Both the position numbers and the translations under genes were made by a program. A DNA stretch of 32,963 nt from Candidatus Bathyarchaeota archaeon (GTDB lineage: Archaea > Thermoproteota > Bathyarchaeia > Bathyarchaeales > Bathycorpusculaceae). Where the stretch lies: NCBI GenBank assembly GCA_003141855.1, contig PLNS01000016.1:1-32963 (forward strand). Direction: 5' to 3'. A model generated the notes under the pieces. It was not told the DNA's origin. It did no database searches and saw only the letters and a program-made list of their open reading frames with translations. Shown in pieces: positions 210 to 3,313 of this stretch; the first letter of the stretch is position 1; each line of letters begins with the position of its first letter.

Positions 210-1622
210 ATGCCCGAAGATAAAGAGTTGAGGCTTCAATGCGTACATTGCGGAGCAAAATTTCCTATTTATCCACTCAGAAGCAACTGCGAAATATGCG
301 GTGGAATATTAGAATACAAAGCAAACTTGCCTGAGAAACACGCGGTCAAGTTTTCTGGAACGCTTCGGTTCTGGAGGTACAAACAGTTGCTTCCCCCAGT
401 GCGTAACATGGTTAGTTTAGGTGAAGGCGGAACACCCCTGCACAAAGCTGATAGACTCGCAAAAAGCATGGGGTTAACAAAACTTTACTTGAAAGATGAA
501 ACAAGAAACCCAACAAACTCCTACAGAGACCGCGCTGCAGCGCTTTTAACGTCAAATGCTATTGACCTGCAATCAGACACGCTGGTATGCGCCACTAACG
601 GCAACATGGGCGCCTCTCTGGCTGCGTACTCAGCAAAAGCTGGATTAAACTGCCACGTAATTGTTCCCAAAGAAGTTGACGTAGGAAAACTCGCCCAGAT
701 GCTTGCCTACGATGCAATAATCGAGGAGTACGGTGAAATAATCGACGGCTCAATTTGCAAGGCAGATGCATTGGCAAAAGAAACAGGCTGGTACCAAGCA
801 ACCGCTGAACTCAACCCCCTCGTGGTGGAAGCTCAAAAAACCATCGCCTATGAAATCTTTGAACAAAGTGAAATCCCAGAATGGGTGCTAGTTTCTATGG
901 GAAGCGGCGGCACCATTTACTCCATTTGGAAAGGATTCAAAGAGCTAAAAGAGCTCGGCTTGACGAGAACAGCCCCAAAAATGGTCGGAGTTCAACCTGA
1001 AGGATGCGCTTCCATAGTGAACGCTGCTAAAGGCTCTGAACCGAGAAAAGCCTGCAGTCATTCCACCCGCGCCCTTGCCATCCTTGTAGGCAACCCACTG
1101 CAAAGCGAACTGGCAATTAAAGCGATAAATGATTCAGAAGGTTTAGCCTTAACCGTGTCGGATCAGGACATTCTGGCTGCCGAGCTTCAGATTGCAAAAC
1201 TAGAAGGAGTTTTCGCGGAACCAGCCAGCGCAATAACGGTGGCAGCGTTGAAAAAACTATTAGAAGAAAACAGAATCGCAAGAGACAGTAGCGTCGTATG
1301 TCTAATCACGGGAAGCGGACTTAAAGCCACTGACGTGCTGCAAGCATTGAATAAGAAGCAGAAAACCGCAGGTTTAGGGTTGGAGATAACCACTAAAGAG
1401 AAAATTCTTCGAATTCTAAACGAAAAAGAAACGTACGGTTATGATTTGTGGAAACAACTTGGCAAAATCATGACTCGTGCGGCGGTGTATCAGCACTTGA
1501 ATGAGTTGTCACAAAAAGGGCTAATTGTGGGGTATGAGGAAGGGGGGAAGAGATTCTTCAGAATAACCGAGCATGGCAGGAAGGCTTTGGCAGCTTTTGA
1601 TGAGTTAAAACTTCTTATGTAA
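210..1622 (+). CDS. Threonine-synthase-like protein (PLP lysine replaced by Arg) fused to a PadR-like winged helix
   Basis: Fold-type II PLP-enzyme architecture. An N-terminal zinc ribbon (C11, C14, C27, C30) is followed by a threonine-synthase-like domain (about 60-375) with EGGTPL (72-77), KDE (95-97), a phosphate-loop-like ATNGNMGAS (128-136), GSGGT (231-235), a VFAEPASA segment and TGSGLK near 370. In active threonine synthases the PLP Schiff-base lysine lies in NPTGSFKDR. Here the same position reads NPTNSYRDR, so Lys is Arg106 (codon AGA at 525-527). Residues about 393-470 form a PadR-type winged helix (YGYDLWKQL, AVYQHLNELSQKGLI, then a wing rich in K/R). Loss of the lysine plus a DNA-binding domain argues for a ligand-sensing regulator rather than an enzyme (inference). 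It lies 52 bp upstream of an ECF transporter gene whose promoter holds a 9-bp palindrome, a plausible target. Alternative: an enzyme with altered chemistry. No strong ribosome binding site precedes the ATG. Confidence 0.85.
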   Translation: MPEDKELRLQCVHCGAKFPIYPLRSNCEICGGILEYKANLPEKHAVKFSGTLRFWRYKQLLPPVRNMVSLGEGGTPLHKADRLAKSMGLTKLYLKDETRNPTNSYRDRAAALLTSNAIDLQSDTLVCATNGNMGASLAAYSAKAGLNCHVIVPKEVDVGKLAQMLAYDAIIEEYGEIIDGSICKADALAKETGWYQATAELNPLVVEAQKTIAYEIFEQSEIPEWVLVSMGSGGTIYSIWKGFKELKELGLTRTAPKMVGVQPEGCASIVNAAKGSEPRKACSHSTRALAILVGNPLQSELAIKAINDSEGLALTVSDQDILAAELQIAKLEGVFAEPASAITVAALKKLLEENRIARDSSVVCLITGSGLKATDVLQALNKKQKTAGLGLEITTKEKILRILNEKETYGYDLWKQLGKIMTRAAVYQHLNELSQKGLIVGYEEGGKRFFRITEHGRKALAAFDELKLLM

Positions 1623-1634
1623 CTTCAGGCAAGG

Positions 1635-1665
1635 TTTAATAAATAGTATAGTCACAACTATACTA
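1635..1665 (+). promoter_or_regulatory. Promoter and candidate operator of the ECF transporter operon
   Basis: A TATA-like element, TTTAATAAAT (1635-1644), runs directly into a perfect inverted repeat: TAGTATAGT (1644-1652), spacer CACA, ACTATACTA (1657-1665). With TATA at 1635-1644 transcription should start near 1665, so a protein on the palindrome would sit between TATA and start site and repress. The adjacent upstream gene encodes a PadR-like winged helix, a family that binds such AT-rich palindromes as dimers. The match of regulator to site is inference. Confidence 0.6.
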
Positions 1666-1674
1666 AGTGATTTA

Positions 1675-2292
1675 GTGATGACCAACCTAAAAACACAAGA
1701 AGCTAATGCACCAAAAGACGAAAAAAACCAAAAATATTCCCCAATAGAACACGAAACTCCTATGAATAATAATTCTCAGGGAACCGCATTCAAAATCGCA
1801 ACAGCCGCAATCTTTGCAGCACTCGTCGCGGCCGCCACGCTCTTGTTTGTGATTCCTATTCCCGCTACCAGCGGATACTTCAACCTTGGCGAGACACTCA
1901 TCTACATTGCAGCATTACTGTTTGGGCCACTTGTGGGTGCAATAGCAGGCGCAGGAGCAACAATAGCTGATGTTCTTGTAGCTGCCCAGTTTGCGCCAGG
2001 AACCTTCACAATCAAAGGAATAGAAGGCTTCCTTGTTGGCTTCTTAACCAAGAAATTAAACCAAAAAACCAAAAGCATCACTTTGAGCGCCACGATAGCG
2101 ATTGTGATTGGTGGGTTTGAGATGGTTTTAGGATACTTCCTCTACGAACAACTCGTTTTAGGTTACCCGTTCGCTTTAGCACTCGTCGAAGTCCCATTCA
2201 ACATCATACAAATGCTCATAGGCTTAATCATAGCTGTACCTATAATGCACGCGGTACTGCGTATTTTCCCACAACTTAAAAGCCAGTTTTAA
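1675..2292 (+). CDS. ECF transporter S component (substrate-binding membrane subunit)
   Basis: Integral membrane protein of 205 aa with a polar N-terminal stretch of about 40 residues and then five to six hydrophobic segments. The GYFNLGETLIYIAALLFGP segment followed by a glycine/alanine-rich helix is typical of the ECF_ribofla_trS-like S components (PF07155), which capture a vitamin or precursor and pair with shared EcfT and EcfA units. None of those partners is in the window. Substrate cannot be read from sequence; riboflavin, a thiamine precursor or a B6 vitamer are all possible. The reading begins GTG-ATG (1675 or 1678), a few bases after the palindromic promoter, so the message is nearly leaderless; M30 is a more distant alternative start. 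It ends 13 bp before the AIR-synthase-like gene, suggesting an operon. Confidence 0.8.
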   Translation: MMTNLKTQEANAPKDEKNQKYSPIEHETPMNNNSQGTAFKIATAAIFAALVAAATLLFVIPIPATSGYFNLGETLIYIAALLFGPLVGAIAGAGATIADVLVAAQFAPGTFTIKGIEGFLVGFLTKKLNQKTKSITLSATIAIVIGGFEMVLGYFLYEQLVLGYPFALALVEVPFNIIQMLIGLIIAVPIMHAVLRIFPQLKSQF

Positions 2293-2305: not shown

Positions 2306-3313
2306 ATGAAGCTTCCGCCTGGAAAAATTCCAATAGACATCCTAAAAGAAGTAGTTTTCAAAAACCTCGGCGCCACCCGCAGCGAAGTCACCTTGGGACC
2401 AGCCGCAGGAGTCGACGGCGCAGTCTTGGATTTTGGAAACAAAAACGCCATAGTCTCCATGGACCCCATCACGGGCGCCGTTGAACGCATCGGCTGGTTA
2501 GCCATAAACGTAAACGCCAACGACGTCGCCACCTTCGGCGTGGAACCAGCGTTCTTCTTCTCATGCCTGCTCTTGCCCGAGAACGCGGACAGCAAAATCG
2601 TTGAAACCATAAGCGCCCAAATGCATACCGCGGCAAAGGAACTGGGCATAGCCATCGTGGGCGGACACTGCGAATCAACACCTGGCTTAGCTAACCCGAT
2701 TGTTGTGGGCTGCATCATGGGCTTAACTGAAAAAGGCAAATACGTTACCGCTGCAGGCGCCAAAGCAGGCGACAAACTCATTTTAACTAAGAGCGCGGGT
2801 ATCGAGGGCACAGCCATCTTAGCTTCCGACCGCGAAGCGCAACTGGGAAAAATCTTTAATCCTGAAATTCTTGAGAGCGCTAAAGGCTTCTACAAACAAA
2901 TCAGCGTCGTAAAAGACGCCTTAACCGCTTACAGAGCAGGCGGAGTCCATGCTATGCATGACCCAACCGAAGGCGGCATCCTAAACGGCATCCACGAAAT
3001 GGCCGACGCTGCAGGCTTAGGCGCAAGAGTTTTTGAGGAGAAAATCACGGTTGAGCCTGAAACGGCTAAAATCTGCAGGTTCTACGAGATTGACCCCTTA
3101 CAACTTATCAGTTCAGGTGCACTGCTTATCGCCGCCGACCCACAAGCAGCAGACAAAATAATCGATGCCTTATGCCAGGAGCACATTTACGCTGACGTCA
3201 TCGGCGAATTCAACCCAAACCCCAACAAACGCATACTCATGCACAAAGACGATTCGGCGGAGATGCTGCCAAGACCCGTCTCAGACCACCTGTGGATTGC
3301 ATTAACACGTTAA
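2306..3313 (+). CDS. AIR synthase-related protein (HypE/ThiL/SelD/PurM superfamily)
   Basis: 335 aa with the two-domain PurM fold. An N-terminal ATP-binding half has GPAAGVDGAVLDFG (the usual acidic pair is reduced to one Asp), then INVNANDVATFGVEPAFF (the NDV...GA.P motif of HypE-like proteins) and GGHCES. The C-terminal half has HDPTEGGILNGIHEMA, the counterpart of DPTRGG in HypE. It lacks the C-terminal PRIC tail that carries the thiocarboxamide in true HypE, which is present on the gene at 28080, so it is not the hydrogenase factor. Being cotranscribed with an ECF S component suggests handling of the imported compound, for example a small-molecule kinase-like step as in ThiL (inference). 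Start ATG 2306 lies 13 bp after the preceding stop, with AGAGGA upstream. Confidence 0.75.
   Translation: MKLPPGKIPIDILKEVVFKNLGATRSEVTLGPAAGVDGAVLDFGNKNAIVSMDPITGAVERIGWLAINVNANDVATFGVEPAFFFSCLLLPENADSKIVETISAQMHTAAKELGIAIVGGHCESTPGLANPIVVGCIMGLTEKGKYVTAAGAKAGDKLILTKSAGIEGTAILASDREAQLGKIFNPEILESAKGFYKQISVVKDALTAYRAGGVHAMHDPTEGGILNGIHEMADAAGLGARVFEEKITVEPETAKICRFYEIDPLQLISSGALLIAADPQAADKIIDALCQEHIYADVIGEFNPNPNKRILMHKDDSAEMLPRPVSDHLWIALTR

Follow-up and report, generated by a model that had tools for sequence, protein, structure and literature searches.

What is the function of a protein that has the fold of a threonine synthase and a C-terminal winged helix, and in which the Schiff-base lysine is lost? 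Such a protein, 470 aa in length, is encoded on the forward strand at positions 210..1622 of the window, by which we mean the whole 32,963-nucleotide stretch of Candidatus Bathyarchaeota archaeon DNA that was analysed. From its ORF, domain matches, AlphaFold2 model and Foldseek matches, it was assigned as a fold-type II PLP pseudoenzyme fused to a PadR domain and, putatively, as a vitamin B6 regulator. The sections below describe the evidence for this assignment.

A threonine-synthase fold without its lysine

The protein begins with a zinc ribbon (240..299, + strand; C11-x2-C14...C27-x2-C30, read as CVHCG...CEICG at residues 11-30), the four cysteines of which are all invariant in a 44-row alignment. 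It continues with a threonine-synthase-like PALP domain of fold type II (411..1313, +), matched by PF00291 over residues 68-368 with an E value of 9.7e-74, and the phosphate-binding loop GSGGT of this domain is identifiable by sequence and alignment at residues 231-235 (900..914, +). A linker at residues 373-392 (1326..1385, +), predicted by AlphaFold2 to be disordered, leads to a PadR-type winged helix at residues 395-469 (1392..1616, +), supported by both Pfam and AlphaFold2; PF03551 matches residues 399-461 with an E value of 3.6e-10 and 40.1 bits, against a curated cut-off of 27. The structure prediction for which the first-pass annotation had called yielded a model with a mean pLDDT of 89.6, in which both the enzyme fold and the winged helix at 395-469 are formed, and the best PDB matches of this model found by Foldseek are the threonine synthases 6nmx and 2zsj (E ~1e-31). 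The kept fold with its zinc ribbon and GSGGT loop, and the attached PadR-like domain, had both been recognised in that annotation and are borne out here. So is its reading of arginine at the Schiff-base lysine position: the codon at 525..527 (+) is AGA, encoding Arg106 within SYRDR. The same genome contains an ordinary threonine synthase elsewhere, with SFKDR and without the winged helix (L068, on contig G000:C8).

Orthologs sharing 55-79% identity with the protein are present in 44 of the 101 relatives and also in other members of the class Bathyarchaeia. The lysine column was scored over 150 aligned proteins, including 97 scorable fused proteins, in 94 of which the lysine is replaced (R 66, L 16, I 6, M 3, K 3, and V, A and F one each), whereas all 51 unfused threonine synthases have K; one additional R was traced to a contig-edge fragment of a fusion. 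The difference between fused and unfused proteins is pronounced (Fisher p = 5e-35), although the sequences are related and not independent. Among the 57 intact main-clade orthologs in Bathyarchaeia, 56 have R and one has M, and a strain-specific change or sequencing error at Arg106 can thus be ruled out, since the arginine is conserved in the clade. The first-pass annotation had conceded that its reading would fall if most homologs of the fusion kept the lysine; it is kept only in three basal fusions (L219, L220 and the Lokiarchaeota protein L122). By IQ-TREE, the main fusion clade (support 100/97), a second fusion clade (99/97) and the threonine synthases (86/93) each fall on one side of a branch; the support for the fused clades resolves neither the root nor the number of lysine losses.

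Further changes are seen in the alignment of the main clade. The substrate-carboxylate loop shows T130N and M/L133, and the phosphate loop shows S232 and T235; the cofactor contacts N132 and T367 and the glycines of the loop are unchanged. Residues N130 and M/L133 are those that we take to correspond to the substrate-carboxylate residues T85 and T88 of the Thermus thermophilus threonine synthase, and the mapping of all fusion residues to catalytic roles presumes this numbering. The fusion resembles ThrC (TIGR00260; PRK05638) in its fold, zinc ribbon and cofactor pocket, with 36-42% identity, and differs from it in the absence of the Schiff-base lysine, the altered substrate residues, the added winged helix and a B6-linked operator. 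Overall, it appears to be a dead copy of threonine synthase that has lost the catalytic lysine; judged by the lysine position it is not a threonine synthase, even though the NCBI model PRK05638 takes it in. Three Thermoproteota proteins with a strong PRK05638 match (L247, L248 and L254) read SFRDR or SVRDR, and to judge from these motifs the name "threonine synthase" is probably wrong for them as well.

The operator and the adjacent transporter gene

The palindrome noted at first pass downstream of the fusion gene proved to be real. It lies at 1644..1665 (without strand) as the inverted repeat TAGTATAGTC-AC-AACTATACTA, for which no binding data are available, directly after a TATA-like box (TTTAATAAA, 1635..1643, +) that was assigned by position only, without promoter data. 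With up to 2 mismatches allowed, it has no other match in the 2.39 Mb genome, and genome scans of the relatives showed that the operator usually occurs once per genome. A near-invariant form of the repeat, TAGTATAGTT-NN-AACTATACTA, is found between the fusion and transporter genes, where it immediately follows a TATA-like box; it is present, within 4 mismatches of 20 positions, in 48 of 52 such gaps, and variant sites are largely symmetric (e.g. AGTAAAGTTATAACTTTACT). The symmetry suggests binding by a PadR dimer, DNA binding by the fusion being an inference. Two copies of the operator 20 bp apart were observed before the transporter at three loci (L053, L054 and L060), which suggests tandem binding.

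The repeat and the fusion occur together. A 16-base pattern with one mismatch was found in 29 of 44 fusion-bearing and in none of 57 fusion-less relatives (p = 1e-14), and a 20-base pattern with at most 3 mismatches in 50 of 57 versus 10 of 57 (p = 2e-14); nearly all of the ten fusion-less matches have three mismatches, and their frequency is similar to that of the reversed-pattern control. The genomes are related, so these p-values overstate independence. No convincing site was found upstream of the fusion gene in 59 loci, the best scoring 7.7 at a single locus, and autoregulation by the fusion was set aside on this ground.

The next gene on the same strand after the fusion encodes a PF07155 protein in about 54 of 61 loci. 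In the window it lies at 1675..2292 (+), matches PF07155 with 106 bits (cut-off 26.7), and is the putative target gene, encoding an ECF S-component of the PdxU/HmpT family. PF07155 also includes PdxU and PdxU2/HmpT, the ECF-type carriers known for B6 (PMC9997740). A profile of 41 transporter genes matched a single PDB chain at E values up to 1, namely HmpT (4hzu_S, E 4.9e-21), in which pyridoxamine was detected by mass spectrometry (PMC4860826). Of the conserved HmpT pocket residues E41, H84, Q87, Y120, N140 and Q143 (PMC4860826), four of the six are identical in the archaeal product by alignment (E41/E73, Y120/Y154, N140/N176 and Q143/Q179), whereas His84 and Gln87 align with Lys114 and Glu117. 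Matches to CbiQ/EcfT (PF02361) are present in the same genome, EcfT genes were found in 101 of 101 genomes, and at one locus (L108) an EcfT gene is found about 2 kb downstream together with two genes for ABC ATPases. The product is, on its family membership and without transport data, a candidate B6 importer.

Other features of these neighbourhoods were observed. At L108, the transporter ORF (L108:9462-9965) is PF07155 joined to a Pcc1 domain, perhaps by a deletion or an assembly joint, and the downstream genes are ecfA, ecfA' and ecfT. At L061, thrC lies upstream of the fusion with homoserine dehydrogenase, ACT-domain and ilvD genes. At 37 of 61 loci the transporter is followed by an AIR-synthase/HypE/ThiL-like protein (2306-3313 in the window), which is also present in fusion-less relatives; it is possibly B6-related.

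Targets in trans and the identity of the regulon

The part of the evidence for a B6 regulon that we consider decisive, as far as genome comparison can decide, consists of operator sites away from the fusion gene. Four genomes (G064, G071, G434 and G062) have no transporter gene after the fusion, or the contig ends there, and in these an unlinked transporter homolog has the site 3-19 bp ahead of it; G098 and G406 have a further operator site before a PF07155 paralog, making six genomes with transporter sites in trans. Where a gene has been inserted between the fusion and the transporter (G083), the operator stays with the transporter.

The biosynthetic gene pdxS was found in only 6 of 101 relatives. 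In all five of those that carry a main-clade fusion, an operator-like site stands just before it, with PWM scores of 37.4 (G003), 12.3 (G018), 23.9 (G071), 20.1 (G074) and 17.3 (G089); the next best scores at the same loci do not exceed -0.6, and a score of 8 was not reached at any of about a million null positions (P(score>=8) < 1e-6 per position). Four of the five sites are degenerate, with 4-5 mismatches. A pdxT gene follows pdxS in all five, identified through Pfam and NCBIfam in G003 and by sequence in the others. No site was seen in the sixth genome (G076), which has only a second-clade fusion, but there the gene is cut by the contig edge; thirteen further fusion-bearing genomes lack pdxS. 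Three scattered weak extra sites (G003:C96, G074:C88 and G039:C4) that might have indicated a wider regulon were taken as chance, no B6 gene being found among the genes looked at behind the first two, and another at a contig edge (G308:C13) is unresolved.

Natural loss provides the complementary evidence. Twenty relatives without the fusion keep the transporter, several with the same flanking genes, and none of their 20 transporter promoters contains an intact operator; the best score is 15.9 (G004, TAGTATAGTTCTGATTATGCTA), and G099 and G009 show weaker remnants. Decayed operator remnants were observed before the transporter gene at the fusion-less loci L307, L309 and L316. The fusion and the operator are thus gained and lost together, a pattern that speaks for the fusion protein as the one that binds the operator, and the placement of operators before PdxU/HmpT-family transporters and pdxST indicates that the regulon is that of vitamin B6.

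Could the fusion instead be a threonine or homoserine regulator, a paralog that senses a substrate or product of the pathway and controls thrC and amino-acid uptake? Its fold is that of threonine synthase, and one family has a thrC with the lysine upstream of the fusion, in divergent orientation at most loci and once accompanied by hom, ACT and ilvD genes. However, in the thrC-adjacent loci the operators precede the transporter and none precede thrC, and only the one weak site precedes the fusion gene in 59 loci; the transporter belongs to a B6 carrier family, the sites in trans mark pdxST, and the substrate-carboxylate residues are altered. We consider this reading unlikely, and a threonine regulon was set aside because the operator sites do not mark thrC. 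It is still harder to maintain that the fusion is an active enzyme, in which the arginine or another residue substitutes for the lysine, and that another protein binds the operator. The kept zinc ribbon and fold, and the NCBI model PRK05638, which names such fusions threonine synthase, would agree with it; but PRK05638 members over or near the cut-off also read R, the genome has a normal SFKDR threonine synthase (L068), and the operator is gained and lost jointly with a fusion to which a DNA-binding domain is attached.

The ligand is less constrained than the regulon. Lysine-less PLP enzymes that hold external aldimines are known, and the cofactor pocket residues are kept here, so that the fusion may sense a PLP-amino-acid aldimine or another B6 vitamer (PMP or pyridoxal), the regulon still being that of vitamin B6. 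Against this, the substrate-carboxylate residues are replaced, and ligand data are absent; we regard this as a minority possibility that deserves to be kept. A thiamine or riboflavin regulon, in which the S-component carries hydroxymethylpyrimidine or riboflavin, has in its favour that Pfam labels PF07155 a riboflavin family and that HmpT was first proposed, and named, as a hydroxymethylpyrimidine carrier (PMC4860826). It seems highly improbable, however, given that pdxST is under the same operator, that the sensor has a PLP-enzyme fold and that HmpT was found with pyridoxamine. The ligands suggested at first pass, threonine and riboflavin/thiamine-type compounds, are thus not favoured; with operators before PdxU/HmpT-family genes and pdxST, and not before thrC, the evidence points to B6 (PLP).

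A proposed PLP-sensing regulator and its relatives

The most plausible reading of the fusion is that it does the job of bacterial PdxR, an unrelated MocR factor, with a PadR domain and a pseudoenzyme of fold type II. We think it likely that the protein is a transcription factor controlling vitamin B6 supply as a PLP-sensing repressor; that it binds DNA, that its ligand is PLP and that it represses with PLP as co-repressor are inferred. The enzyme half, derived from threonine synthase, would keep the PLP pocket, with arginine for the Schiff-base lysine and altered substrate-carboxylate residues, and should therefore bind PLP reversibly without catalysis. PLP, made or imported, would fill the pocket without a Schiff base, lysine-free binding being assumed, and a dimer of the protein would attach, through the PadR winged helix, to the inverted repeat that lies downstream of the TATA-like box and ahead of the target gene. 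With plentiful PLP, the PLP-bound dimer most likely blocks transcription of the transporter gene, and of pdxST where present; with scarce PLP, the protein would leave the repeat and free the promoter. The pocket, lysine loss, winged helix, operator, co-occurrence and targets in this scheme are read from the sequences; the ligand, the binding and the sign of regulation are inferred.

The first-pass suggestion of a ligand-sensing regulator that resembles MocR but uses a fold-type II protein is strongly supported by comparative genomics, through the conserved lysine loss, the winged helix, the co-occurring operator and the targets in trans, with binding of DNA and ligand still inferred. The parallel with MocR/PdxR holds in the fusion of a PLP-enzyme fold to a winged helix and in the B6 regulon: PdxR regulons contain pdxST, pdxK and pdxU (PMC5320631), with pdxST and/or pdxU as the shared element, and here sites precede PF07155 transporters and pdxST. 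It does not extend to the fold, the HTH family or the domain order. MocR/PdxR proteins have an N-terminal GntR winged helix, a fold-type I aminotransferase as sensor and often direct repeats as sites, whereas the archaeal fusion has a C-terminal PadR domain, a fold-type II PALP domain (PF00291) that has lost its lysine, and a simple inverted repeat. MocR factors were moreover reported to be absent from Archaea (PMC5320631). The archaeal fusion is neither a MocR factor nor a threonine synthase.

Among archaeal vitamin regulators, RbkR is a riboflavin kinase fused to an HTH domain (PMC8305020, PMC10746257). It shares with the fusion the combination of a vitamin-enzyme domain and an HTH, but differs in the vitamin, fold and DNA-binding domain, and stays catalytic. 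ThiR, the archaeal thiamine regulator, has a ThiN-derived sensor and is another precedent for a vitamin-enzyme domain joined to an HTH; again, the vitamin, fold and DNA-binding domain differ from those of the fusion. No published description of a threonine synthase/PadR fusion, a fold-type II regulator or an archaeal B6 regulator was found in the open-access literature, and within that literature the threonine-synthase/PadR B6 regulator is apparently undescribed.

In the second fusion clade (L207-L236), the lysine is replaced mostly by Leu or Ile. These fusions often adjoin a homolog of the same transporter, mostly divergent, and most of the divergent gaps carry a different inverted repeat, roughly TATATAAGYTTYARCYTATATA (TATATAAG), which is consistent, at the level of sequence, with a regulator family of drifted DNA specificity. 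On balance, and with less assurance than for the protein itself, we favour a new family of transcription factors that sense PLP and have converged on the principle of bacterial MocR. Its members would be PadR-fused threonine-synthase pseudoenzymes in which the Schiff-base lysine gave way to Arg (one clade) or mostly to Leu/Ile (another) and PLP sensing became non-covalent, and they would control B6 supply across Thermoproteota, and possibly in Asgard archaea.

What would such a family mean? The analysis suggests that the PRK05638 "threonine synthase" entries for the fusions are wrong, which would distort reconstructions of the threonine pathway. If the proposal is true, it supplies the missing archaeal vitamin B6 regulator, and it points to a candidate B6 importer in archaea that mostly have no detectable pdxS. 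It would also mean that PLP sensing by a PLP-enzyme domain joined to a winged helix evolved at least twice, with fold type I in bacteria and fold type II in archaea.
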